From the IMG/VR virus record IMGVR_UViG_3300017788_001744, positions 1 to 20,848 of that record: a stretch of DNA of 20,848 nt; one strand, given 5' to 3'. Each line of letters begins with the position of its first letter. Within the stretch, counting starts at the first letter, position 1. The position numbers were made by a program, and so were the translations under genes. Source of the DNA: a virus. Below, piece by piece: positions 1 through 20,848 of the stretch. The notes beneath the pieces are model-generated. The model saw only the letters and a list, made by a program, of their open reading frames with translations. It did not search any database and was not told the DNA's origin.

Positions 1-429
1 TCGCCAGAGGTTGACATCCATGAACTCGTTCTCTGGAACTCGTTCTCGCAGAATGTTTCGGTGACTGAGTTTCAGGCTATGAGAAACATGCGAATGACCT
101 ACGTTGCTCGTTCTGGTGAGTTCGTGAATGGGAAGTACCTGTTCACTCTTGACTGGCACGCACCCGATGACAACGTAATCAACGCAGGCTTCTCTGTGAA
201 TCCGGGGCAACACAAGTGTGGCCATGTGATTGAACGAGATGACGGAAACTTCGCAATACAACCGAACAACAGGGTGCGTTTGTTTGACCCATCATTTACC
301 ACCAAGAGTGGCACACTCATTGAGCGTCTAGTGAACACGAGGAAGTGGGATGTAGAAGACGCCGCCAAGTGGGTCACTTCTGACGACGACCGATACGAAT
401 ACGACATCGAAAAAAGGGAGAGCAAGTGA
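1..429 (+). CDS. Unknown phage protein, 5' end outside window
   Basis: The reading frame is open from the first base, so the real start lies upstream; the first start codon inside the window is GTG at 61, which would give 122 aa. I do not recognise a family. Counted from that GTG there is a HKCGH patch at residues 51-55 that could bind metal, and an acidic C-terminal third ([11 protein letters not shown]). The stop codon overlaps the GTG start of the DUF262-HNH gene by 4 bases (GTGA), so the two are translationally coupled and probably work together. Function is unknown. Confidence 0.7.
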
Positions 430-1598
430 AAACGCAACTCAAGACATATACCGTCAAGGAATTAGTCGAGGGATTCTCGTACGATGACTTTGAGGGGAAG
501 GGTCTGTTCGGACTAAATGGGCGCTTGACGATTCAGCCCGAGTACCAGCGGAACTACCTATATGCGGAGCAGAAGCAGGACATCGGCGTGATTGACTCCA
601 TCCTGAGAGGATTCCCCTTGGGGTTGGTCTACTTTGTCAAGACCGACGACGGGAGGCTCGAGGTACTGGATGGACAGCAACGCATTACGAGCATCGGCAG
701 GTTTGTGCGGGGCGAGTTCTCGTACCTAAAGGACAAGGTTGGGCCGTGGGATTTCTCCACAATGCCCGAGGACAAGCAAGAACTTATCTTGAATACGGAG
801 ATTCTTGCTTACGAATGCGAAGGAACAGAAACCGAAATCAAGGAATGGTTTCAGATTGTGAATATCGCAGGCATTCAGGTAAACCAGCAAGAGGTGCTGA
901 ATGCCGTATATTCGGGACAGTTCGTTACTCTTGCCAAGGCAAAGTTCAGCAACAGCAGGGCCGTGCCAAACATCTGGGCAACCTACATCAAGGGTCAGGC
1001 CAATCGTCAGGACTATTTGTCGTGCGCCCTCAAGTGGGTGAGCAAGAAAGATGATGCGTCGGGCGATGTTGCCGCCTACATGAACAAGCATCGTCATGAT
1101 GCCGACATCACCGAAATCGTCGCGTATTTTGACTCAGTCATCAACTGGGTGAACACGATATTCAAGTCGGTTCACAAAGAGCAGAAGGGTATTGATTGGG
1201 GTTCCCTGTACAGGGAATATCATCACACTGGCTACAACCCCGATGAACTCGATGTTGATGTCGCGGGACTTCTGGAGGATGTTCACGTCACAAATAAGAA
1301 GGGAATCTGGGAGTATGTGCTGGGCGGGAAGAAGACTCCCCAACTACTTGAGGTTCGCTACTTTGATGAGGCGACCAAGAAGATTGCCTATGGGGCGCAA
1401 ACTCGCCTAGCGCAAGAGGCTGGTCACTCCAACTGCTCTCACTGCGCAATGGGTACAACGGCCCTCAATAAGAAGATTTACAAGCGTGACGAGATGGACG
1501 CCGACCATGTGACTGCTTGGAGCACTGGCGGTTCCACTACGTTGGAAAATTGTGAGATGCTTTGCATCAAGCACAATCGGGCAAAGGGCAATAAGTGA
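426..1598 (+). CDS. DUF262 (GmrSD N-terminal-like) protein with C-terminal HNH nuclease
   Basis: 390 aa. Residues about 5-200 resemble the DUF262/ParB-like fold of GmrS: YQRNY at 40-44, FPLG at 63-66 and the signature DGQQRITSI at 82-90, which in this family binds or hydrolyses NTP. Residues 337-390 form an HNH endonuclease: CxxC at 337/340, DH at 360-361, GG at 368-369, N375, C380 and HN at 383-384. The family includes type IV restriction enzymes against modified DNA and antiphage proteins. On a phage it may attack competing phages or host DNA, or act at packaging; the target is inference. The GTG start is set by the 4-base overlap with the preceding gene. All expected HNH residues are present, so it is probably active. 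Confidence 0.85.
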
Positions 1599-2029: not shown

Positions 2030-2266
2030 ATGGAAAACAAGACCGCGTTGGCTCACCAACGTAAAGCATGGGAAGAATTGACCCTCGCCATCAAGTCGCT
2101 CCCAGAAGAACAGCGACAGGCATTTGTTATGAGAGATGCCATGAACATGGAGTATTCCGACATTGCCGAAGTAATCGGAATTGCCGAAGAAGATGTTCGC
2201 TCCCTCGTAACTCGAGCACGGGGCTCGGTTGCTGACTTTACGGAAGAATCAGCCTCGGAGGCGTGA
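2030..2266 (+). CDS. Stand-alone sigma-70 region 4-like protein
   Basis: 78 aa. Residues 15-65 match sigma region 4: LAIKSLPEEQRQAFVMRDA (19-37) leads into a helix-turn-helix at about 41-64 (EYSDIAEVIGIAEEDVRSLVTRAR). In full sigma factors this domain contacts the -35 box and the beta flap of RNA polymerase. Regions 1-3 are absent and the ORF is complete, so this is not a remnant of a longer gene. It could redirect -35 recognition, act with a separate sigma-2 protein as in two-subunit sigma factors, or regulate by mimicry. It is read from a leaderless promoter and its end overlaps the convergent RHH gene by 18 bases. The fold assignment is firm, the role is not. Confidence 0.75.
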   Translation: MENKTALAHQRKAWEELTLAIKSLPEEQRQAFVMRDAMNMEYSDIAEVIGIAEEDVRSLVTRARGSVADFTEESASEA

Positions 2267-2599: not shown

Positions 2600-3227
2600 T
2601 ATCGTCTGCCTCCTCACCCGATACTAACTCAGCAAGAATTGGTTGAGGGGAGGGTTCTGATAATTGCTGACCAAGGATTCCAGACACCACATCGGCTGGG
2701 ATGACCCCAGTACGCCCCATGAGTTCCAGAAGCGCCCGTGCCTCAACCTCGGGGTCAAAGGCATCAACGGCAAGTCTTTCGGTAGCCCCGGCAAGTGACG
2801 CCTTGATTTCCTGCTTTGAGTTGACGTCCATTTGGATGCTGACGTTGTTCTGCTCAAGGCCCAACAACTTAGAACGTGCGGTCATGATGGACAGAACCTG
2901 CTGAATGGCCTTGAGGTCCGGCTCAACGGTCACTTCGCTCCCGTCGTCCAAGGTCACCTTCCGGTGTTGTGTCAGGGGCCAGATTGCGGATTGAAGACTG
3001 TCAAGTCGTTCAAGTTCCATACGGAGAACCTCGGGGAATGCCAAGAATGCTTCCCTATTCAACTTCTCCAACTGTCTCTGGATTGCCTTATTGACAACCG
3101 AGGTAGTTACGCCAAAGCGTTTTGCGATGTCGGTAATGGGGACACCGGCTTGGCGTTGCTTGAAGATGCGGAGGTCCCGTTCTGCAAGGAACTCCTTTGT
3201 CATTACTTGAGGATTACGGTCCGCCAT
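2580..3227 (-). CDS. HTH protein resembling a terminase small subunit
   Basis: 215 aa from ATG at 3227, 14 bases inside the end of the primase gene, with AAGG just upstream. Residues 15-50 form an HTH (ITDIAKRFGVTTSVVNKAIQ at 31-50); 58-125 are helical with ELERLD and, after a gap, RSKLLGLE, a phrase typical of small terminase subunits of actinobacteriophages; the C-terminus is acidic. Small terminases recognise the packaging site and recruit the large subunit, but no large terminase is in the window and the neighbours are replication genes. It could instead be a replication or regulatory protein. Confidence is good for a gene, moderate for the family. Confidence 0.6.
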   Translation of the reverse strand: MADRNPQVMTKEFLAERDLRIFKQRQAGVPITDIAKRFGVTTSVVNKAIQRQLEKLNREAFLAFPEVLRMELERLDSLQSAIWPLTQHRKVTLDDGSEVTVEPDLKAIQQVLSIMTARSKLLGLEQNNVSIQMDVNSKQEIKASLAGATERLAVDAFDPEVEARALLELMGRTGVIPADVVSGILGQQLSEPSPQPILAELVSGEEADDNEQYVE

Positions 3228-6048
3228 CTCCAACCTTCTTATACTCGATGGTCTCAAAAGGCCACTTGCCAGATTTTCCACGTCTCATCTTGACAGGCCA
3301 ATAACGCTCGTCTCTTTCTCCACGAAAATGCTTTACGTCGTATACATATTCTCCCACAGCAGTAGGGTCTGGCTGGAGAGCAAGTCCAAACTCGGGCCAT
3401 CGTGACCACACGGCAGAACCGAAGGGGCGTAGATTGCGGGACGTCTGCGACTCACCCAACGGAGCGTGGTGCTCCAACCACAGAGCGCAGTCAAAGTACA
3501 CGCGCAGTGTGTCTAGGTATTTGACGACCTCAATGGCAACTGCTTCTGAGGTTTTGTTGCCGGGGTCAAGGAAGGCTTTGTACAAAGGGCCCAAGATGAG
3601 CATGTCTGGTTTGATTTGCTCCATGTAGGACTCCAACAGCAACTTGTCAGATATGTCAAGCAGGTTCAGTCCGTCCGGCTTGATGACCAAGTGAGCACGG
3701 GGCTCCAAGCAGTAGCCCAGCGCCTTGGATGCACCCATGATGGTTCTCGTTGAGCGACGAATGATTCGTTCGGGGTTCTCCAAGTCAATGGTCAGCGTTG
3801 TGATGGGGGCCATTCGTTGGAATGAGAAGGGTTGGACGCCACACGCAGTAGTGATAGCCACCTGCCTAGCAAGCATCGTGTTGTGTGTGGGGATATATGC
3901 ATCACCTATTAGGTATGTGTTGTCGGGACCATCAACGGAGATGCATCTCATGGGTACGGGGTCAATCTTCTCCACGGACACGATGTAGCGGTACAGCGAC
4001 CGACGAGTCTTCAGTTTTTTTGGGAGCCGTTCTACTTTACGCTTGAGTCTGCACACAGGAATATCGGTCTTAAAGGAGATTCTGTACCTTCGCCCGGTCA
4101 CTCGTCCGTAAAGTTTGGCATCACCTTCATGCATCGTTGCTTTAATGCCAAGGGTTTGTATGAGGTCAAGGAACCACTTTGCCAATTCGGCATCCGTGAC
4201 AGAGAACTCACACAAGCCATTGGTGGCAATGTATCCATCGGTGTCCATCAACCCCTGAACGAGGGCAAGACGTTGCTCATATGATGCACGTGCATAGACG
4301 GCGGGAATATGCTTATTCTTGAATAGGCCGTGTTCTTTTAGTTGCGCCTGCAGGCCAAGAATTCCATAGATGTTTGGTGTTGATTCCCTCTTGCGAACGG
4401 AATACCCGTCATTGCGGATTCCCTCAAGTACCTCATCATCCTCGGAGCAGATGGAACCATCGGCAGAAGTCCCGTCTCCCAGCCATGCGCCCAATGTGTA
4501 TGGAGGAATGGGGAGTTTCGCTTCGGGGAGATTTAGGGGCATCGTTGTCGGAATGGCGTGGTTGAGTGCTTTTGTGCTCCTGTTGGAAATGAGTGTGTCG
4601 AGAATTTCCTTAGTTGTGCGAACACCGCCAAGTTTCCTCTTCTCTCGCTCATTAAGTGTTTCCGTGTACCACTGATGCTCGGCATCGGCATCAATAAAGT
4701 TCCCGTCAGAGAATGTCACTCTGTAGGCATCTGGGTTTGCTTCCACGGGGCTGATGTAGGTGACCTTGACCGGGTTGCCGAAACGGTCAATGACGGTATC
4801 ACCAACAGATATGTCCCTGAGTGTCGTCCAACCAGAAGGAGTAGGTATGCCGCTAGTTAGTGCAGCACGCTTGCCCACGCCCTCCGCCGCAACCACAATG
4901 ACTCGCTCTCGTCGCTCGAGGAGTCCCGGGATTAGCCAGTCGTAGTTATCTACGTCAGTTTCGCTGACGAAGTGGTCCCAGTTGACGAGTCGCCCCTGAT
5001 TGAGGGGCATCTGTGCCGTTGCAGAACCAATGATTGCCGATGCCCTCGTAATGAGGGTTGCTGTGGAGATGTCAGAACGCTCAAGAAGTTCCTTGAGTTT
5101 CTCAACAGTCTCGTCGCTGTTGACACGAGGAATGCCTCTGACCTCCTCCTCATACTCGTCTTCGCTATCCAGATGTTCTTCGGCAACCATCGGGGCTTGG
5201 TCTTCTTCGGATGGGATGAAGCGAACAAGTTCCTCTGTGTTTCCACCATCGGCAATGAAGTCGGAGATGTCCTTACACCGCGGTGGGGCGTACGCCTGAA
5301 CATCGCATCCCGCTTTGGCGAGTTCGCCGAGAACATGGGCGGCGTGCTTACGTCCCGGCTCATCGTTGTCGGCAATAACCAGCACGACTGCTCCGGCGAG
5401 TACTTCGGTGTGGATGTCGCTCCATGAGCCAGCGCCATTGGGCATAGTGGTGGCTACGACACCCATGGAGTTCAGGGTGTCTGCGTCCTTCTCTCCCTCA
5501 ACGACCCAAATCTCCTCACCCTTCTCTTTTGCTTTGAGAACATTTGGCAGGTTGTAGAGAATGCGAGGAATGCTTCCCAATGTGCCAATCCAGCCACCCT
5601 GTCCGTCAGGGCGACGTTGGCGAAATGTCTTACGACCATCTTCGTCCACGAACCGGCGCTTCTGGAAAGAGAGAGTCCCGTTTTCGTCAAAGTAGTTGTA
5701 CTCAGCGACGAATCGGAGTTTCTTCTTTTCCTTTCCGCCACCGTTATACGTTGAGGACTTTATTGTTGGGTAGGTGTCAATGGCATGGGCCATTTCCGAT
5801 GGAGGCATGAGGTCGGCCATGCTGATTCCTAGCGAGTCACAAATTTGCGACGCATTGCACCCGCCCCCTCTGTGGCAATACACGAGGATTTGGCCAGTTG
5901 GCTTCTCGTGAACGGACAAAGATGGAATGCTGTCGTCATTGCGACATGGGCACTTTGCGTCCCAGCCATTGCCGGTCTTGACAACCCCATCCAAACGAGC
6001 GAGAAGTTCGGAAGTGTGCTCAAACACGGGACGGATACCCCAGGACAT
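3214..6048 (-). CDS. DNA primase-helicase (zinc, TOPRIM, RecA-like) with intein
   Basis: 944 aa precursor, about 615 aa after splicing. Order: CHC2-like zinc region (C33, C35, C58, C64) for template recognition; TOPRIM at about 175-245 with VVEGEKDAD (182-190) and ADNDEPG (226-232) holding the catalytic Glu and Asp residues; linker; RecA/RepA-type helicase ATPase from about 365. The Walker A loop AAEGVGK (387-393) is cut by an intein and resumes at T724, giving AAEGVGKT after splicing; a Walker-B-like strand (DMLILGP) is at 815-821 and EHHAPLG at 859-865. It should make primers and unwind DNA at the phage fork. The ATG lies 29 bases inside the upstream WhiB gene and the end overlaps the next gene, marking an operon. 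Confidence 0.88.
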   Translation of the reverse strand: MSWGIRPVFEHTSELLARLDGVVKTGNGWDAKCPCRNDDSIPSLSVHEKPTGQILVYCHRGGGCNASQICDSLGISMADLMPPSEMAHAIDTYPTIKSSTYNGGGKEKKKLRFVAEYNYFDENGTLSFQKRRFVDEDGRKTFRQRRPDGQGGWIGTLGSIPRILYNLPNVLKAKEKGEEIWVVEGEKDADTLNSMGVVATTMPNGAGSWSDIHTEVLAGAVVLVIADNDEPGRKHAAHVLGELAKAGCDVQAYAPPRCKDISDFIADGGNTEELVRFIPSEEDQAPMVAEEHLDSEDEYEEEVRGIPRVNSDETVEKLKELLERSDISTATLITRASAIIGSATAQMPLNQGRLVNWDHFVSETDVDNYDWLIPGLLERRERVIVVAAEGVGKRAALTSGIPTPSGWTTLRDISVGDTVIDRFGNPVKVTYISPVEANPDAYRVTFSDGNFIDADAEHQWYTETLNEREKRKLGGVRTTKEILDTLISNRSTKALNHAIPTTMPLNLPEAKLPIPPYTLGAWLGDGTSADGSICSEDDEVLEGIRNDGYSVRKRESTPNIYGILGLQAQLKEHGLFKNKHIPAVYARASYEQRLALVQGLMDTDGYIATNGLCEFSVTDAELAKWFLDLIQTLGIKATMHEGDAKLYGRVTGRRYRISFKTDIPVCRLKRKVERLPKKLKTRRSLYRYIVSVEKIDPVPMRCISVDGPDNTYLIGDAYIPTHNTMLARQVAITTACGVQPFSFQRMAPITTLTIDLENPERIIRRSTRTIMGASKALGYCLEPRAHLVIKPDGLNLLDISDKLLLESYMEQIKPDMLILGPLYKAFLDPGNKTSEAVAIEVVKYLDTLRVYFDCALWLEHHAPLGESQTSRNLRPFGSAVWSRWPEFGLALQPDPTAVGEYVYDVKHFRGERDERYWPVKMRRGKSGKWPFETIEYKKVGDGGP
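3880..4869 (-). mobile_element. Class-3-type intein with LAGLIDADG homing endonuclease
   Basis: Residues 394-723 (330 aa) of the primase-helicase. The left edge is block A-like (LTSGIPTPSGWTT) and the right edge ends THN before T724. The W-C-T set of class 3 inteins is present: W460 in block B (EHQW), C702 where block F normally has Asp (RCISV), T721 before the final His-Asn. Such inteins need no nucleophile at position 1, which fits Arg394 here. Two LAGLIDADG-type motifs, LGAWLGDG (519-526) and LVQGLMDTDG (596-605), keep D525 and D604, so the homing nuclease is probably active. Placing the junction at K393/R394 restores a perfect Walker A; the exact N-junction is inferred. Confidence 0.8.
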
Positions 6049-14565: not shown

Positions 14566-15191
14566 GCATTCGCTTTTGCTGTAGCGATAAACTCCGAGAC
14601 TGAGGCGATTGCCTTCTTGCTTGTGGTGTAGGTGAGCCTCCAGTCAGGTGCGCCCGTGTAATCCAAGTCGTCGGCGGGGAAGTAGTAAAGGATGCCCTGC
14701 TCCAAGTCAAGGGTCAGTTGGTTCCGCCCCGTGAAGTTGCGGAAAGCGCCCTTTGTCTTAGTGATTCTTCTCGCATCACCAGCAACTATCTGATGCTCAG
14801 GGCGGTCAACCTGAGACATCGTGAAGTCAACAACATGGTCATTGGCTGTCAGTACGATGACATGACCACCGAGTCCCGTCTTTGCATCATTGCCCTCAGC
14901 GGCTCCCAATGCGTATTCGCCATCACGAAAGGTCATACCATCATCATCCTCGGCAAGCGAGGTGAGCCTGTCGTAGCGCACCTTATTCATAGCCAGCGAC
15001 GTAACGGCAGAGACACGGTGGGTGAGTCCGAAGTGCTTGAGTACATCGCTGGTGATGCGTGCGGTAAGAATGCAGGCGTTGTAGGTGTAGTTGTCCTTTT
15101 CTTCGTCCCACCATCGAACGAGTCCCGCTAGGACTTGTTCTTCTAGTCTGGCACTAGCCACCCGTGCTTGCTTGACCTTCTTGCCTCTCAC
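14562..15191 (-). CDS. Putative transglutaminase/papain-like Cys-His-Asp protein
   Basis: 209 aa. The line-up YNACILTARI (C40), GLGGHVIVLT (H110) and DHVVDFTMSQ (D122) has the order and spacing of the catalytic Cys, His and Asp of transglutaminase-like or NlpC-type folds: Cys at the start of a helix, His and Asp on adjoining strands. The N-terminus is basic (RGKKVKQAR). No signal peptide, so it acts inside the cell. It might cut or cross-link a host protein or be a phage maturation enzyme; the assignment rests on motif pattern only. GTG start overlaps the previous gene (GTGA). Confidence 0.5.
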   Translation of the reverse strand: MRGKKVKQARVASARLEEQVLAGLVRWWDEEKDNYTYNACILTARITSDVLKHFGLTHRVSAVTSLAMNKVRYDRLTSLAEDDDGMTFRDGEYALGAAEGNDAKTGLGGHVIVLTANDHVVDFTMSQVDRPEHQIVAGDARRITKTKGAFRNFTGRNQLTLDLEQGILYYFPADDLDYTGAPDWRLTYTTSKKAIASVSEFIATAKANA

Positions 15192-15406
15192 TTCTTATTC
15201 CGCTGAATAAGGCGAGTAACGCCGTAGACGACGCCGAACCATATGGCTCCATTGACAACTCCATCAATCACAAGTCCACCATTGGCGAGTGGGGCGATAA
15301 AACCGATGCCAGCACCGATACAGCCTGCCTTCTTAGCGAATTGCTTTCGTTCCACCTCTCCTTTGGGTGGATTGGGTGGGGAGTTCGGGGGAGGGAAGTC
15401 GTTCAT
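15188..15406 (-). CDS. Small membrane protein, 72 aa
   Basis: Pro-rich polar N-terminus (DFPPPNSPPNPPKG), then about residues 28-66 hydrophobic (AGCIGAGIGFIAPLA and IWFGVVYGVTRLI), enough for two short spans or one span plus a re-entrant loop, ending in basic KK. Size and layout are compatible with a holin, but position among envelope genes is the only support. Good ribosome site (AGGAG). ATGA/GTGA overlaps on both sides place it in a tight operon. Confidence 0.6.
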   Translation of the reverse strand: MNDFPPPNSPPNPPKGEVERKQFAKKAGCIGAGIGFIAPLANGGLVIDGVVNGAIWFGVVYGVTRLIQRNKK

Positions 15407-15711
15407 ACATCTCCTGTTTCTTTGTTTGCCGTATGGATTTGCTCATTTAGTAGGCTATCCAAGTCAATATGAAGAATCTCGGAGTATGACCTAAACAACT
15501 CCATGTGCTTGGGCTCAATGTCCAGAACGCTATCAGGAACCTTCACCCAAGCAGAGCCATCCCACAGACACATTCGTCGTACTCGCTTCTTGGTGAAGCG
15601 CCAGAACTCAAGGTAGAAATACCGTCCCGGTTCTTTGTGCTGGAATACCACCTTCCTTAGGAAGGGATTCCGACTGAACTCAAAGGCGACCTCTTTCCGA
15701 GGAGATGTCAT
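15403..15711 (-). CDS. Unknown soluble protein, 102 aa
   Basis: ATG at 15711, overlapping the upstream stop as ATGA, with AGGAGG 5 bases before it; a longer start would ignore that site. Basic and aromatic N-terminal half (EFSRNPFLRKVVFQHK, GRYFYLEFWRFTKKR), acidic C-terminal half. No family recognised. It sits in the five-gene coupled run 14562-16357. Confidence 0.65.
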   Translation of the reverse strand: MTSPRKEVAFEFSRNPFLRKVVFQHKEPGRYFYLEFWRFTKKRVRRMCLWDGSAWVKVPDSVLDIEPKHMELFRSYSEILHIDLDSLLNEQIHTANKETGDV

Positions 15712-16358: not shown

Positions 16359-17336
16359 TCAAACTCCCCACTTTTCGCCAGCGAGGTCGTTCTTTATCTT
16401 CATCACGGTCGTCAGGCTGAGACCAGACTCTCGGGCAATCTCTGCTAGTGGCTTGCGGTTGTCGGCAGATAGCAACTCACGAGCCTTGCGTCGCTCTTCC
16501 CACTTCGGGTGTCCCGGTGGCAAGCGTCGCAGACCAATCTCCTTACGAATCTTGTCCACGGTAGTGACGGAGCAACCAATGGCTTCGGCAATCTGGCGAC
16601 AGGTCATTCGGGGGAGGGGGGACTTGAGCATCTCCTCAACTTGGGAGCGCTCATCGGGACTCAGCGGACGACGACGCTTTACACCAATCTCCTCGCAACG
16701 CCGACGCACCCAGTTCATGGGGATAGCGTGACGAGAGGCGATGATGACAAGAGATAGGTCGCCAGCACGCAGGTCAGCATCCACTTCGGTGTAGTCAAAG
16801 ACGACTCGCTGGCTGGAGCGACGATTGTTGCGTGCCGAGCGAGGGATGCCCAGCAAGTCCCGTTGCCGAGCGACGTGAGCGAAAGAGATTCCCGACGCAC
16901 GAGAAACTTCCAAGTCGGTTATCAGGGGGTTGGCGGTCAGCAACTCACGAGCCTTGATGGTGGCTTCGGAGGGCTGTTGGATGCCACGCCGTGCCGATGG
17001 TACACCAAGCATCTTGCGGTACTTGGCAACCGTAGCCCCGCTACAGCGGTACAGCACGGAAATCTGCGTGTTGGTGTCGCCGGGGTTGGTTTTCAGATGC
17101 TTCATGATGTCGCCCTGACGCTTGCGGTACGGACTCATGGGCTTGAGTCCCTCCTGCTCACGAATGAAACTGACGACGCTCTGCTGAACATCGTGTGCGA
17201 GTGCGATGTCGCCGTCATAGCGATACTCGTCCCGCTTGATGTCCTCACGGATAACCTCAACCTGCTCTGGAGTCATGTCCTTGAGTAGACGCTTTGCCAA
17301 CGGCTTATTCACACTTTTCCCTTCTGGCTTATTCAC
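16359..17336 (-). CDS. Protein with six tandem HTH-like units
   Basis: 325 aa, basic. HTH-like units recur about every 45-55 residues: 42-63 (DIALAHDVQQSVVSFIREQE), 88-112 (ISVLYRCSGATVAKYRKMLG), 138-165 (DLEVSRASGISFAHVARQRD), 192-220 (LSLVIIASRHAIPMNWVRRR), 243-270 (TCRQIAEAIGCSVTTVDKIR) and 294-319 (PLAEIARESGLSLTTVMKIK). Units 2-6 each end near a hydrophobic/basic helix and a Gly. It may read a long or repeated DNA site, for example in the noncoding region nearby. Start: GTG at 17336 or 17312, because a 24-bp duplication has copied the ribosome site (GAAGGG) and start. Confidence 0.75.
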   Translation of the reverse strand: MNKPEGKSVNKPLAKRLLKDMTPEQVEVIREDIKRDEYRYDGDIALAHDVQQSVVSFIREQEGLKPMSPYRKRQGDIMKHLKTNPGDTNTQISVLYRCSGATVAKYRKMLGVPSARRGIQQPSEATIKARELLTANPLITDLEVSRASGISFAHVARQRDLLGIPRSARNNRRSSQRVVFDYTEVDADLRAGDLSLVIIASRHAIPMNWVRRRCEEIGVKRRRPLSPDERSQVEEMLKSPLPRMTCRQIAEAIGCSVTTVDKIRKEIGLRRLPPGHPKWEERRKARELLSADNRKPLAEIARESGLSLTTVMKIKNDLAGEKWGV

Positions 17337-17349
17337 ACTTTTCCCTTCT
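17302..17349 (-). repeat. 24-bp exact tandem duplication of ribosome site and start
   Basis: 17302-17325 and 17326-17349 are identical. Each unit contains, on the minus strand, AGAAGGGAAAAGT followed by GTGAATAAGCC, that is a ribosome site and an in-frame GTG start. The result is two start signals 8 codons apart and the repeated N-terminus with VNKP twice. Confidence 0.9.
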
Positions 17350-17459
17350 TATGGCTCGCCCCCAGCGGACGTCCCCCTCACCATACAGCCCCCGTGCGAC
17401 ATTCGCAACCCGAGAGAGAGTCCCGTCGCTGACGCTCCCCCGTCGCTGACGCTCCCCCA

Positions 17460-17591
17460 CTACCGCTTCCCCCACAACTTGCGCAACTTGCGATGCCCTG
17501 AGATGTGGTCGGCAATCCTGACGAGGAGCCACGAGAACGGTACGGCAACGGCGAGACCGAGAGGTGCGTTGAGGAAGGTGTCCATGTTCAT
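17460..17591 (-). CDS. Small membrane protein, 43 aa, behind element A
   Basis: ATG at 17591, immediately after repeated element A. Residues 9-27 (APLGLAVAVPFSWLLVRIA) form one membrane span, and the C-terminus is strongly basic (GHRKLRKLWGKR), so N-out, C-in. No family recognised. The coordinated upstream element is the main reason to believe the gene. Toxin-like or membrane-acting small phage proteins have this layout, but no function is claimed. Confidence 0.55.
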   Translation of the reverse strand: MNMDTFLNAPLGLAVAVPFSWLLVRIADHISGHRKLRKLWGKR

Positions 17592-17625
17592 ACCCATTCT
17601 GTCACCCTCTCACTCGTAAGGATTT
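17592..17625 (-). promoter_or_regulatory. Repeated start element, copy A
   Basis: Minus strand: AAATCCTTAC, 12 bases, GACAGAATGGGT, then ATG at 17591. One of six copies with identical spacing. Confidence 0.7.
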
Positions 17626-17639
17626 GCCCGTGAGGGGCA

Positions 17640-17656
17640 GGGGGGCGAACCCCCCC
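17640..17656 (-). terminator. G/C hairpin after the acidic-protein gene
   Basis: Read leftward, seven G then TTCG then six C (17656-17640): a very stable UUCG-capped stem, 16 bases after the TGA of the acidic gene. It separates that gene from element A. There is no T run. Confidence 0.5.
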
Positions 17657-17671
17657 ACCCCCCCCGTGGGG

Positions 17672-17797
17672 TCAGTCCTCGTCCTCGCAGTCCTCGTACT
17701 CGTCCAGAGCGTCCTCGCCCAGCAGGAGTGCCGTCCACGAGAAGGAAGTGGCAGGGTCGTGTTCGTCGTTTTCGTCGTATTCCGGTGTGGTGTTCAT
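17672..17797 (-). CDS. Very acidic 41-aa protein behind element D
   Basis: ATG at 17797 directly after element D. About 18 of 41 residues are Asp or Glu, in two runs (EYDENDEHD near 6-14 and DEYEDCEDED at the end), around a short hydrophobic middle (FSWTALLL). Such charge is seen in DNA-mimic proteins that occupy host DNA-binding enzymes; this is a guess from composition. Its first codons resemble those of the genes behind elements C and E. Confidence 0.55.
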   Translation of the reverse strand: MNTTPEYDENDEHDPATSFSWTALLLGEDALDEYEDCEDED

Positions 17798-17831
17798 ACC
17801 TTCACTGTCGCCACCTACCGTGTGTGGATTT
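17798..17831 (-). promoter_or_regulatory. Repeated start element, copy D
   Basis: Minus strand: AAATCCACAC, 12 bases, GACAGTGAAGGT, ATG at 17797. The AAATCCACA part also forms the palindrome TGTGGATTTCCACA (17823-17836) next to a DnaA box. Confidence 0.7.
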
Positions 17832-17839
17832 CCACAGCC

Positions 17840-17848
17840 TGTGGATAA
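17840..17848. promoter_or_regulatory. DnaA box
   Basis: TGTGGATAA, the exact complement of the consensus TTATCCACA. It lies 8 bp upstream of element D; TGTGGA/TCCACA half-sites at 17823-17836 may add a second, weaker contact. Confidence 0.6.
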
Positions 17849-17879
17849 CAACGAGTGCTAGTTCGCAAGCGTTGCTAAC

Positions 17880-17916
17880 TTACCCGTGGGTAACTTGTAC
17901 GCTACAAGTATCTTGT
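17880..17916. promoter_or_regulatory. Operator-like cluster of palindromes
   Basis: TTACCC-GT-GGGTAA (17880-17893) is directly followed by CTTGTA (17894-17899), TACAAG (17903-17908) and CTTGT (17912-17916), each separated by 3 bp, so the middle half-site can form a dyad with either side. It lies between the leftward gene cluster and the possible rightward ORF at 17955. Confidence 0.5.
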
Positions 17917-17954
17917 TGCTTACAGGTCATAAGCCCCAAGCCCCGCTCGCGTCG

Positions 17955-18173
17955 ATGCCTCTAGGTGTTACGGTGGTGGAAAGCGAACTACAGATAGATT
18001 CAGTCGCACACCTTACGACGGTTTACGCCTCACATAGATTCATCAGCACAGTCGACGAGGTCGACGAAGACGGGACTTGTCCGCTCGAGTACCAAGTTCA
18101 GATAAATCAGGAAACGCACACATCTCGTGCCTTCATGCCCCCTCCCCTCGAGTGGCACGACAGCCCCGGATGA
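17955..18173 (+). CDS. Possible 72-aa protein, doubtful
   Basis: ATG at 17955 (an in-frame GTG at 17886 lies in the palindrome cluster). The product has balanced composition (GVTVVESELQIDSVAHLTTV ... LEYQVQINQETHTSRAF) and could be a small strand-rich protein, but there is no ribosome site, and the codons ATA, CTA, AGA and TCA are commoner than in neighbouring genes. If real it would be controlled by the operator-like cluster upstream. No family recognised. Confidence 0.3.
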   Translation: MPLGVTVVESELQIDSVAHLTTVYASHRFISTVDEVDEDGTCPLEYQVQINQETHTSRAFMPPPLEWHDSPG

Positions 18174-18316
18174 CCCGCTCGAGGCGTCGAGGCGGCTCGA
18201 ACAACAAAAGCGCACATCAGGGGCACATTCATCAAGCGACCAGAGACCAGACGACGGCGCACATCTATTCCTCAACGAAGAACCAGTCCCGATTCCCACC
18301 CCAAGAGAGACACTCA

Positions 18317-18353
18317 CACACAGAGGGGGAGAGAGACCCTCACACAGAGGGGA
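18317..18353 (+). repeat. CACAGAGGGG repeats, rightward pair
   Basis: CACACAGAGGGGGA (18317-18330) and CACACAGAGGGGA (18341-18353), 24 bp apart, with AGAGAGAC between and before them. Confidence 0.75.
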
Positions 18354-18520
18354 AGAGCAAACAAAGCAAAAAAGAGTGTAAGCAAAATCCAAATCGCCAG
18401 ACCGGTCAAATAAACAATAAATAGTGTTCCCCGTACCCCGCTGTTTCGCATCCGCCCAGGAACGGGGCTCCCCCCGCCGCACCCGAGCAGTTCCACCACA
18501 AGGAGTGGTTACCACACGAC

Positions 18521-18549
18521 TTGGATAAATCTATGCGAGCGTGTGTTAT
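18521..18549 (+). promoter_or_regulatory. Promoter-like sequence in noncoding region
   Basis: TTGGAT (18521-18526), 17 bp, TGTTAT (18544-18549). No gene follows convincingly: a GTG at 18559 directly abuts GGGGAGGA, leaving no spacing for a ribosome site. It may drive a noncoding RNA. Confidence 0.35.
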
Positions 18550-18689
18550 AGGGGAGGAGTGACATCAAATCTCACGGAAAGTGAAAAATGGGGCAAAATC
18601 GCGAGGTTCCCCCCGTATTTCGTCTCTCTCAGTAGTCCCGCGACATCGACCCTGCGTAGCGAGCCACACTCAATCTCCGACTCAACACC

Positions 18690-18732
18690 CACTCTGGGTG
18701 GTCAAAAGGTGTTTATCATCACTTTGGGTGGT
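18690..18732 (+). repeat. Two 13-bp direct repeats 30 bp apart
   Basis: CACTCTGGGTGGT (18690-18702) and CACTTTGGGTGGT (18720-18732). A 30-bp step is close to three helix turns, so bound proteins would sit on one face, as in iterons or paired operators. Confidence 0.65.
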
Positions 18733-18823
18733 ATTGAGTAAAGTGTGAGGAATGGTGTGAAGTGTGCGATTGGCGAACATGAGCCGCCAGCCCCGGGGGA
18801 TGAGCCGGAGCGAAATCGTTCTT

Positions 18824-18870
18824 TCCCCCTCTGTGTGTCTCTCTCCCCTAGTGTTTCTTCCCCTCTGTGA
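18824..18870 (-). repeat. CACAGAGGGG repeats, inverted pair
   Basis: Minus strand carries CACACAGAGGGGGA (18837-18824) and TCACAGAGGGGA (18870-18859), again with AGAGAGAC between them. Facing the rightward pair, they form an inverted arrangement about 470 bp apart. Confidence 0.75.
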
Positions 18871-18944
18871 TACCGCTGTCCTTGTTATCCGTTGAGGTAA
18901 TGAAAAGCCGCCCATTTGTTCGTGGGGTTCCACTAGAACGGGAC

Positions 18945-19358
18945 TCATCCGCAGTACGGTACGAAAATGGAGCATGATGAAATCGCTAGCCGTCTTGACC
19001 GCCTGAACGCCGACCTTGCCCGTCTTGAAGATGTCATCGGCACGGTGTACGAGGAAGTTCTCCGTCTACGGGCGGACATTTCGGGGACGGAGCCCCGCGG
19101 CACGCGCTGGCAAGTCGCCTCGTCGTGGTTCCCTCCGATGCCCGATTGACGAGTGGGGAGGGTTTCCCCTCCCCTGACCCGTCGGAGCCACTCGGCGAGG
19201 TCGCCGTCGGCGATTTCGGAGTAGTCCACCCCTTCGGCATCGGCAATCGCTTGCCAGACCGCTTCCTCCGTGAGTGGGGACTCCCAATCAATGTAGTCCA
19301 TCCACCCCTTCGGGGTGTCGTCGCAGGGCTTCGGTTCGGGTTCGGGTGTGTGTTCCAT
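18945..19358 (-). CDS. Acidic protein behind element C, C-terminal half doubtful
   Basis: ATG at 19358 follows element C exactly. Residues 1-66 look genuine: EHTPEPEPKPCDDTPKGWMD then a helical acidic part (LTEEAVWQAIADAEGVDYSE, DLAEWLRRV). After that the frame stays open for 70 more residues but becomes Arg/Ser-rich and runs fully antisense to the coiled-coil gene. Either the protein really has this basic tail, or a shifted stop or a sequencing error hides the true end near 19150. N-terminal codons resemble those behind elements D and E. No family recognised. Confidence 0.5.
   Translation of the reverse strand: MEHTPEPEPKPCDDTPKGWMDYIDWESPLTEEAVWQAIADAEGVDYSEIADGDLAEWLRRVRGGETLPTRQSGIGGNHDEATCQRVPRGSVPEMSARRRRTSSYTVPMTSSRRARSAFRRSRRLAISSCSIFVPYCG
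18955..18966 (+). promoter_or_regulatory. Leaderless -10 box of the 60-aa gene
   Basis: TACGGT (18955-18960) then 6 bases to ATG at 18967. A CGGGACT heptamer (18939-18945) lies in the spacer region; no clear -35 box. Confidence 0.45.
18967..19149 (+). CDS. Coiled-coil protein, 60 aa
   Basis: Residues 1-40 show a clear heptad pattern (IASRLDRLNADLARLEDVIG, then VYEEVLRLRADI) typical of a dimeric coiled coil; the last 20 residues are Trp/Pro-rich and probably unstructured. Leaderless promoter upstream, stable hairpin 5 bases after the stop. The opposite strand is also open (see 18945-19358), but the heptads and promoter favour this strand as coding. Could be a small oligomerising adaptor; function unknown. 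Confidence 0.6.
   Translation: MEHDEIASRLDRLNADLARLEDVIGTVYEEVLRLRADISGTEPRGTRWQVASSWFPPMPD
19155..19174 (+). terminator. Hairpin after the coiled-coil gene
   Basis: GGGGAGGG (19155-19162) and CCCTCCCC (19167-19174) with a TTTC loop, 5 bases after the TGA. Very stable but without a T run. Confidence 0.5.
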
Positions 19359-19392
19359 GCCTTCTCTGTCTCGGGGTGTCCGGTAAGGATTT
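19359..19392 (-). promoter_or_regulatory. Repeated start element, copy C
   Basis: Minus strand: AAATCCTTAC, 12 bases, GACAGAGAAGGC, ATG at 19358. It is divergent from copy F, with 16 bp between the two AAATCC boxes. Confidence 0.75.
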
Positions 19393-19408
19393 GGGCGACA
19401 CGCTGGAC

Positions 19409-19442
19409 AAATCCTTATGGAAGCGTTAGGGACAGGGAGGGT
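19409..19442 (+). promoter_or_regulatory. Repeated start element, copy F
   Basis: Plus strand: AAATCCTTAT (19409-19418), 12 bases, GACAGGGAGGGT (19431-19442), ATG at 19443. The only copy on the plus strand. Confidence 0.75.
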
Positions 19443-19652
19443 ATGACCCACTACTACGAAATCACAGACACGCTCACCGGAGACCTGCTGGACGTTGTTC
19501 CCTTCTGTTCGGACTACTGCCACTACTGGTACTGCCACCAGAGCGGTCTGGAGTACGGGGGGTGGAACGGGTGTCATGAGCACCCCTACAACGATGAGTG
19601 CCGTGAGTGTGGCACTCTCATCAGGGGGATTCAGGAAGCGGTAGCCTGCTAA
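19443..19652 (+). CDS. Cysteine-rich small protein, 69 aa, behind element F
   Basis: ATG directly after element F. Strand-rich start (HYYEITDTLTGDLLDVVPF) then seven Cys: C22, C26, C31, C44, C53, C56 and C69, with several His, forming probable zinc sites; CRECG (53-57) is a knuckle-like CxxC. Composition and length recall small cysteine-rich proteins common in actinobacteriophage accessory regions. Partner unknown. It is divergent from the gene behind element C, sharing the control region 19359-19442. Confidence 0.7.
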   Translation: MTHYYEITDTLTGDLLDVVPFCSDYCHYWYCHQSGLEYGGWNGCHEHPYNDECRECGTLIRGIQEAVAC

Positions 19653-20080
19653 CCCTCTCGCCACGGTTCTCCCTGTACGCAACAGTTCATTGAGCGTGCG
19701 GGACGTGCCACGCCCGTGCTGTCCTCTCATCAAGGGTGATAGCACGGGCTATCGGCGTTCTGAGCAGGCATTTTGTGTCCTGCCTGCCCGATGCCGGTTA
19801 CTCCCCTCTGTCAGGACAGCCTGACGCACCCGCCCGTCGAGGTAGCCGGACGCCCCGCTGTTCGACTCGAGCGGACAAATGAGGGGGCATTTCCAAAATT
19901 TGCCGATTTAGCAGGGGTGATGCCGGTGATAGCAGTGCTTCGAAGGAGGCGGGACTATCCCGTACTGGGCGTGGGTGCTGTGGGCGTGGGGGTAAATAGA
20001 GAACCGGAGAGGCTTATTCAGCCCCTCCGGTAGCGAGGAATCGTGTTCCTAATGCCCGTCTGGGCTATGTGCCTGTCCGA
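19653..20080. other. Noncoding, hairpin-rich stretch
   Basis: No convincing ORF. Perfect stems: GCCCGTGCT (19712-19720) with AGCACGGGC (19741-19749), with an inner ATCA/TGAT; GTCAGG (19810-19815) with CCTGAC (19820-19825). The long stem at 20003-20031 is listed separately. The first two may be terminators or processing sites after the Cys-rich gene, or part of an RNA. Confidence 0.45.
20003..20031 (-). terminator. Terminator-like hairpin after the element B gene
   Basis: ACCGGAG (20003-20009) pairs with CTCCGGT (20025-20031), one mismatch, then GGC/GCC and a 7-base loop. Read leftward it is followed by TCTCTATTT, a weak T-rich tail. Confidence 0.5.
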
Positions 20081-20218
20081 CTACTTGCGGACGAGGGAAC
20101 GGACGACAGCGTTCTTGACGCGAGCGAACACGCTGAGCGAGCCACGCATGACCCAGTAGCCGTCCTCCTCCTCCACAGCCTTGACGCGGGAGAAAAGGTT
20201 CATCATCACCTCCTTCAT
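20081..20218 (-). CDS. Small basic protein, 45 aa, behind element B
   Basis: ATG at 20218 follows element B; the first codons (AAGGAGGTG) also form a strong ribosome site for a second start, ATG at 20206 or 20203, so two translation modes are possible (leaderless long, Shine-Dalgarno short). The product is a likely amphipathic helical protein (NLFSRVKAVEEEDGYWVMRG then LSVFARVKNAVVRSLVRK) with basic C-terminus, possibly membrane- or nucleic-acid-associated. Unknown family. Confidence 0.55.
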   Translation of the reverse strand: MKEVMMNLFSRVKAVEEEDGYWVMRGSLSVFARVKNAVVRSLVRK

Positions 20219-20252
20219 ACCTACTCTGTCTCAGGCTATTGGGTATGGATTT
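20219..20252 (-). promoter_or_regulatory. Repeated start element, copy B
   Basis: Minus strand: AAATCCATAC, 12 bases, GACAGAGTAGGT, ATG at 20218. A LexA-like box and two DnaA boxes lie just upstream. Confidence 0.75.
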
Positions 20253-20257
20253 CCCCA

Positions 20258-20269
20258 GAACAAGTGTTC
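20258..20269. promoter_or_regulatory. LexA-like (SOS) box
   Basis: GAACAAGTGTTC fits the Gram-positive/actinobacterial SOS consensus GAAC-N4-GTTC and extends to a 5-bp dyad (GAACA/TGTTC). It is 5 bp upstream of element B. Confidence 0.5.
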
Positions 20270-20271
20270 GT

Positions 20272-20292
20272 TGTGGATAAAACTGTGGATAA
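20272..20292. promoter_or_regulatory. Two DnaA boxes in tandem
   Basis: TGTGGATAA at 20272-20280 and again at 20284-20292, both exact consensus, same orientation, 12 bp apart start to start. A GGGACT/AGTCCC hairpin (20315-20336) follows. Confidence 0.65.
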
Positions 20293-20339
20293 CTCGGTCG
20301 TCAGCCCACATAAGGGGACTCGCTTCGCTCAGTCCCGCC

Positions 20340-20368
20340 TTGTGGTTCTGGGTTCCAGACGGTAGTTT
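20340..20368 (+). promoter_or_regulatory. Promoter of the 77-aa gene
   Basis: TTGTGG (20340-20345), 17 bp, TAGTTT (20363-20368); ATG at 20380 leaves a leader of about 5 bases. Confidence 0.5.
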
Positions 20369-20379
20369 GGCGAACCACG

Positions 20380-20613
20380 ATGGCGACCCACACACCAATC
20401 ATCAACGGAATGGTCTTTCTTCTCCGGTTTACGCCCATACGGGACTCCCGAGGCGGGTACACGGGGGAGATGCTGGACAAGGAGACTGACGAACAGGTGT
20501 TCGTTGATGTGTTCCCGTCATACGCCGATGCGTACAGGGAACTACGCAAGATGGACGAGGGTGCGTGGGACGGAGGCCCCGCTTACGAGCCGTGCGGTGT
20601 CCAGACGGCGTGA
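20380..20613 (+). CDS. Unknown protein, 77 aa
   Basis: Strand-rich N-terminal half (PIINGMVFLLRFTPIRDSRG) and an acidic helical part (FPSYADAYRELRKMDEGAWD) ending in a single Cys. No recognised family. It lacks a ribosome site and is preceded by a short-leader promoter. It is convergent with the zinc-ribbon gene at 20645, and a CCCC-CGAA-GGGG type hairpin (20621-20632) lies between their ends. Codon use is like that of the surrounding small genes. Confidence 0.6.
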   Translation: MATHTPIINGMVFLLRFTPIRDSRGGYTGEMLDKETDEQVFVDVFPSYADAYRELRKMDEGAWDGGPAYEPCGVQTA

Positions 20614-20644
20614 AACCCCACCCCCGAAGGGGCAGGGTCGCTGG

Positions 20645-20779
20645 TCAGGCAGGCTCTCTGATTGCCTCGTACCAGTCGGCACCGCAGTCGTCGCAGATGA
20701 GTCCGTAGTCCTCTCCGCAGTCGTTGAGGTCGTCGGTGGTTCCGCAGAACCGGCAAGTGGTGTGTTCGGTGTTCTCCAT
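20645..20779 (-). CDS. Small zinc-ribbon protein, 44 aa, behind element E
   Basis: ATG at 20779 directly after element E. Two CxxC knuckles, C9xxC12 (TCRFCG) and C29xxC32 (ICDDCG), 16 residues apart, form a complete four-Cys zinc ribbon; the rest is acidic (TTDDLNDCGEDYG, ADWYEAI). Acidic zinc ribbons of this size may bind proteins such as RNA polymerase rather than DNA; that is inference. N-terminus (MENTEHTT) resembles those of the genes behind C and D. Confidence 0.65.
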   Translation of the reverse strand: MENTEHTTCRFCGTTDDLNDCGEDYGLICDDCGADWYEAIREPA

Positions 20780-20813
20780 ACCTACTCTGTCGCCCGTGGC
20801 ACGGTAAGGATTT
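20780..20813 (-). promoter_or_regulatory. Repeated start element, copy E
   Basis: Minus strand: AAATCCTTAC, 12 bases, GACAGAGTAGGT, ATG at 20779. The window ends in TTATCCA, a possible cut-off DnaA box upstream of it. Confidence 0.75.
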
Positions 20814-20848
20814 GGGAATACTTGCGTACGCCAAAGGTATGTTATCCA

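Follow-up and report, generated by a model that had tools for sequence, protein, structure and literature searches.

A 34-bp element running into the start codons of small phage genes is a probable lineage-specific promoter

Short genes in IMG/VR virus record IMGVR_UViG_3300017788_001744 are preceded by a 34-bp sequence that runs directly into the start codon, which raises the question of whether this element serves transcription, translation or another function. The record is a linear fragment of an uncultured phage, analysed here over its whole 20.8 kb and referred to as the window. It encodes an SNF2 helicase, a toprim/AAA replication protein, a single-stranded DNA-binding protein (SSB) and two WhiB proteins; because of the two WhiB genes, its host is probably an actinobacterium. 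The element is made of two boxes, AAATCC and GACAG, separated by a variable spacer. We conclude that it is very likely a promoter class specific to this phage lineage, at which transcription would start on the A of the ATG and produce leaderless mRNAs.

Six sites in the window match the pattern AAATCC-NNA-N13-GACAG-NNNN-GG-N-ATG exactly (Table 1), precisely where a sequence-only reading of this DNA had placed them, while 0.03 matches are expected in shuffled sequence with up to 3 mismatches allowed. AAATCC and GACAG are 16 bp apart in all six copies, which agrees with the fixed spacing proposed in that reading. The genes behind them are short, as it also said, with lengths of 43, 41, 137, 69, 45 and 44 aa and not the 41-138 aa that it gave. 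A seventh, degenerate copy lies within the 3' end of the upstream gene, and GACAG is intact at its orthologous sites in four related contigs (G002 1407, G004 13096, G005 7790 and G001 12999).

Relatives were collected by one scan of viral contigs for the element, which is present in several further uncultured phages. Contig 3300021963_000150 (G002, 57 kb), colinear with the window, contains 47 copies, mostly before small open reading frames (ORFs). G003 is a near-duplicate of it, and more copies were found in G001, G003, G004, G005, L023, L032/L082, L085 and L086; pattern matches in L081, L083 and L087 are probably due to chance. The search for this element upstream of ATG codons in relatives, suggested as a check on the first prediction, thus gave 73 distinct copies in eight contig sets after removal of duplicates. 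On G002, 42 of 46 first-pass matches are on one strand and the gap is 16 bp in 46 of 50 cases, the other four gaps being single chance cases. A megablast search revealed no close relative of the window among annotated phages, which give only helicase relatives at 30-35% identity. Bacterial genomes yielded two single isolated matches in unrelated bacteria, about the chance level, and therefore no prophage or host gene carrying the element.

The information in the base counts, numbered from the first base after the element (+1, normally the A of ATG), is near-maximal at -34 to -25, at -14 and at -12 to -8, low at -24 to -15 and moderate at -7 to -1, with a conserved GG at -3 and -2 just before the ATG. 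Comparison of 11 orthologous pairs gives 98% identity for AAATCC and GACAG, whereas the ten spacer bases reach 38%. The element is thus under selection and not merely inherited. It occurs in two subtypes: all 19 copies of six contig sets are of the AAAT subtype AAATCCAAAT, and the 54 copies of the window and G002 have AAATCC followed by TTAC, TTAT, ATAC, ACAC or close variants. The subtype is uniform inside each phage, as expected if one trans-acting reader serves all copies of a phage. In L086, which is of the AAAT type, copies precede the orthologues of five neighbouring G002 motif genes. Absence of the motif before orthologous genes had been named as evidence that would count against a promoter. 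The motif is retained in the close relatives compared, and its absence was seen once, in the remote L085, which has a Shine-Dalgarno (SD) sequence instead. The same data bear on the idea that the repeat is a recombination or cassette boundary, by which phages would swap small genes and which would do no direct regulatory work. The small genes behind the motif do differ and are mostly unrelated, and the relatives vary in gene content, but the boxes are kept at orthologous positions while the spacer drifts, their phasing to +1 is exact, and a recombination substrate would favour contiguous identity. We regard this idea as highly improbable.

The bases flanking the presumed start point to transcription. 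The base at -1 is C or T in 73 of 73 copies and the base at +1 is A or G in 71 of 73; the two exceptions form one orthologous pair (G002 and L086), in both of which the ATG begins 2 nt later. A pyrimidine at -1 followed by a purine at +1 is the usual initiator preference. In operon-internal genes of the same phages, -1 is A or G in 53 of 71 cases. The distance to the ATG had been described as invariant: it is nearly fixed, since 68 of the 73 copies abut an ATG, but not absolutely so in the relatives, and five copies have no ATG at +1. Two such copies in G002, at 18008 (AGG at +1) and 20695 (GTG at +1), lead into GGAGG and a downstream ATG. The ATG is retained in window copy B and in some copies of G002 and G004, yet an SD sequence and a further ATG follow a few bases on, and the G002 orthologue of copy B lacks the ATG at +1.

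Another copy (G002 28067-28103) has A at +1 and drives no evident ORF. A full-length self-cleaving Pistol ribozyme (Rfam RF02679, 54.2 bits against a gathering score of 34.5) begins 3 nt after its +1, and the first 417 nt from that +1 fold far better than shuffled sequences (z -4.8). A translation signal would have no role at this copy, whereas a promoter at +1 would yield a ribozyme-headed RNA. The folded region, also without evident ORFs (L014:2600-3016 (-), equal to G002 about 27650-28070), matches no Rfam family other than Pistol, and is possibly an undescribed phage noncoding RNA. No tRNA was found behind a copy lacking the ATG.

These copies are informative about the alternative originally offered, a translation-linked start-associated sequence in which the 34-nt RNA segment would direct ribosomes, or an RNA-binding factor of the phage, to the start codon. 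The fixed distance at which most copies abut the ATG, the GG kept just before it and the position of nine copies (in G002 and the window) at 4-bp gene overlaps are what such a signal would predict. However, ATG-less copies persist, one of them heading the Pistol RNA, SD-led starts lie downstream of others, and the pyrimidine at -1 is found in every copy. Moreover, AAATCC is at least 28 nt from the start codon and the spacer between them is not conserved. The 13-bp consensus of the mycobacteriophage start-associated sequence (SAS), GGGATAGGAGCCC, was found near starts neither in the window nor in G002 with up to 2 mismatches.

A translational signal also needs a promoter to make the leader that carries it. 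The -10 hexamer TAnnnT located 5-8 nt before the start, the mark of leaderless genes read by the housekeeping sigmaA, was found in none of the 56 motif genes, in 15 of 50 first-in-unit genes that lack the motif and in 5 of 71 internal genes. This bears out the earlier remark that the boxes do not resemble the housekeeping consensus. Over the region upstream of motif genes, TAnnnT is scarce generally (15 against 36 in the reversed control). The divergent copies C and F, an arrangement kept in G002 (17125(-)/17178(+)), leave only 84 bp between their ATGs, that is two motifs plus 16 bp; in the window this region contains no TAnnnT on either strand, and no sigma70-like promoter match was obtained over 17300-20848. 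Pairing with the ribosome was rejected as the cause of the right box, as an SD core at -14 to -5 is present in 13 of 51 motif genes against 29 of 53 internal genes.

Two more distant relatives, L034 and L035 (62% helicase identity), provide a parallel. They have about 18 copies of TT(G/A)GTTTCTGAYA-N11-TAnnnT, whose offset is always 24. Behind each there is either an ATG after 6-7 bases (leaderless) or an SD leader. This family reads as a promoter combining a phage-specific upstream box with a normal -10, and its boxes occupy the same places as those of the window element. Because of the initiator bases, the ATG-less copies, the absent housekeeping -10 and this family, a purely translational start-associated sequence is improbable. 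The same four observations favour the pair of -35/-10-like boxes with a leaderless start that the sequence-only reading had put forward.

The element could instead be a set of operators, bound at gene starts by a phage repressor or a stoperator-type protein, with the true promoters elsewhere. Such sites would be repeated, asymmetric and mainly in one orientation, as observed; a multi-helix-turn-helix (HTH) protein is encoded nearby, and TTATCCACA boxes cluster upstream of copies. We nevertheless find this quite improbable: the register to +1 and ATG is fixed, the tight divergent region of the window shows no other promoter, and two parts placed at -34 and -12 with a 16-bp spacing have the geometry of a promoter. 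The 13-bp consensus of the L5-type stoperator, GGTGGMTGTCAAG, is at chance level, with one 2-mismatch match against 1.6 expected. A promoter for a single-subunit phage RNA polymerase was set aside, since the element extends to -34 and its spacer is not conserved.

The DnaA-box-like TTATCCACA sites are themselves enriched, with 3 against 0.12 expected in the window (17795-17860 and 20250-20295) and 18 against 0.28 in G002. They lie at most 80 bp upstream of a motif copy in 3 of 3 cases in the window and 11 of 18 in G002, and often occur as TTATCCACAGnCTGTGG abutting AAATCC. They are possibly a second regulatory site.

According to the promoter model, AAATCC(T/A)(T)A(C/T) at -34 to -25 would take the place of the -35 element and GACAGA at -12 to -7 (GRGACAGA in the window phage type) that of the -10. 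An RNA polymerase with altered specificity would bind -34 to -7 and begin RNA synthesis at +1, so that most small motif genes would be translated from leaderless mRNAs; with a start codon elsewhere, the same promoter would give an SD-led mRNA or a noncoding RNA. Several points weigh against this model. The -10-like box is not A+T rich, which is unusual for a region to be melted; the GG at -3 and -2 is not strictly needed by a promoter; and one promoter per gene looks redundant at the nine gene overlaps. In G002, the C/F region has one TAnnnT per strand, within the opposite element. Sigma70_r2 was not found in the six contigs searched, all of them fragments. Finally, while the architecture, the constraint, the initiator bases, the ATG-less copies and the missing housekeeping -10 are directly observed, the placing of the transcription start at +1 is deduced from sequence.

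Neither box fits the housekeeping sigma and each phage has one box subtype; the reader is therefore most likely a phage-modified or alternative holoenzyme, or a phage activator acting with RNA polymerase. The leading candidate is a 325-aa protein with six tandem three-helix HTH modules, encoded beside the regulon, although we assign it this role only tentatively. Seven motif contigs carry its gene (window, G002, G001, G004, G005, L023 and L025/L032) and the helicase relatives without the motif lack it, a co-occurrence that is a correlation inside one clade; L085, which has one copy, shows no such gene on its 11 kb. The protein is 43-46% identical between TTAC and AAAT phages and 65% identical between the window and G002, while the helicases of those same phages are 87-91% identical throughout. 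Several HTH modules in one protein could allow it to bind a long asymmetric site. No relative of it was found among annotated phages, and its predicted structure, used for the module count only, had no significant PDB match (best E 0.12; predicted template modelling score, pTM, 0.32).

A full phage sigma factor was not favoured as reader, as no region 2 was found in the six fragmentary contigs searched. Proteins resembling sigma region 4 are encoded in the window, G002 (three matches) and G003, and were not found in G001, G004 and G005. The 78-aa protein of the window, which consists of sigma70 region 4 only, was rejected as sole reader, as these last three contigs bear the motif without a Sigma70_r4 match; G001 and G004 have nothing at its syntenic site. 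A more ambitious proposal, which we consider doubtful as a whole, is that a six-HTH factor of a new type redirects the host RNA polymerase to the start-codon-fused 34-bp element, that it controls nearly 50 genes as a leaderless regulon, the Pistol-headed RNA among them, and that element and reader diversified together.

We compared the element with known systems. The late promoters of the phiEco32-like phage 7-11 (GTAAtg-(16)-aCTA) are read by the phage sigma SaPh711_gp47, and transcription begins about 6-9 bp away from their downstream box (PMC8948821). Like them, the element is bipartite and phage-specific, has non-housekeeping boxes and several copies per genome, and shows two conserved boxes 16 bp apart with a variable spacer sequence. 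The sequences differ, phage 7-11 has eight promoters (PMC8948821) against about 47 here, fusion to start codons has not been reported for them, and their sigma is known, whereas none with a region 2 appeared here. T4 middle promoters combine a MotA box with a sigma70 -10 through sigma appropriation by AsiA/MotA (PMC7403470). In both cases a phage-specific box replaces the -35 at scattered phage genes, a layout that the L034/L035 family matches closely; in contrast, the window type also has a non-canonical -10 (GACAGA) in place of TAnnnT. No MotA or AsiA relative turned up, though no search was aimed at them.

In cluster K mycobacteriophages, the SAS is a 13-bp box at a variable 3-9 bp from the start, and about half of the SAS genes also have an upstream extended SAS (ESAS) (PMC3203893, PMC11373665, PMC12699233), in which recent work places putative promoters (PMC11373665). 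Cluster EF Microbacterium phages have a 12-13 bp motif (PMC12859693). These repeats and the present one all stand right before the starts of many small non-structural actinophage genes. The SAS, however, is one box, whereas the element has two boxes at rigid spacing and ATG-less copies, and is thus not tied to translation starts. Leaderless translation is frequent among actinobacteria, and leaderless genes make up about 14% of mycobacterial genes (PMC7148126). As in actinobacterial leaderless promoters, the -10 is positioned so that the start codon would be the transcription start, but here it is another -10, joined to a constant upstream box; TAnnnT-type leaderless genes are found in these same phages. 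We rate the element as standing apart from known phage-specific promoters by its fusion to the start codon and its copy number.

Descriptions of start-associated sequences in actinophages go back to 2011 and give them no known role. The present phages provide a clear case in which the best explanation of such an element is a promoter that would start transcription at the start codon itself. The change of the boxes phage by phage, in all copies at once, offers a natural system to find a new factor redirecting RNA polymerase, and the copy in front of the ribozyme draws attention to a phage noncoding RNA that may be undescribed.

Table 1. Copies of the element, the genes behind them and candidate reader genes in the window.
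Feature	Position	Strand	Remarks
Copy A	17592..17625	-	exact match; +1/ATG 17591; orthologous copies G002 15295(-), G004 15154(+)
Copy D	17798..17831	-	exact match; TTATCCACAGGCTGTGG directly before
Copy C	19359..19392	-	exact match; lies back to back with F, the two 34-bp elements being 16 bp apart
Copy F	19409..19442	+	exact match; orthologues in G002 and G004
Copy B	20219..20252	-	exact match; followed by ATGAAGGAGGTGATGATG (SD inside)
Copy E	20780..20813	-	exact match; G002 19318(-)
Seventh copy, degenerate	15407..15440	-	2 mismatches, AACAG replaces GACAG
43-aa ORF behind copy A	17460..17591	-	
41-aa acidic ORF behind copy D	17672..17797	-	
137-aa ORF behind copy C	18945..19358	-	56 aa in G002, 51 aa in G004
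69-aa Cys/His-rich ORF behind copy F	19443..19652	+	80-87% identical in G002, G004
45-aa ORF of copy B	20081..20218	-	true start possibly 20206 or 20203
Terminator-like hairpin	20003..20031	-	just downstream of gene B; hairpin number not above shuffles
44-aa Cys-rich ORF behind copy E	20645..20779	-	91% identical in G002
72-aa membrane-type ORF of seventh copy	15188..15406	-	
325-aa six-HTH protein	16359..17336	-	beside regulon
78-aa protein, sigma70 region 4 only	2030-2266	+	

Two of the genes call for comment. Gene B probably starts 12-15 nt past the motif, behind the SD in AAGGAGGTGATGATG. The ORF behind copy C is probably a shorter gene of 56 aa whose stop was lost, given the lengths of its relatives; its extension is antisense to a conserved 60-aa ORF at 18967-19149 (+).

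Elsewhere in the window, more than 1 kb at 17840-18960 has few conserved ORFs and contains short inverted repeats such as CCCCTCTGTG and its complement, with no significant Rfam match. At 426-1598 (+), a GmrSD N-terminal-type protein with an HNH domain has no match in the related contigs compared. The 944-aa replication protein (3214-6048, -) carries a LAGLIDADG insertion of ~330 aa, absent in G002, G001 and G004, which is probably an intein.

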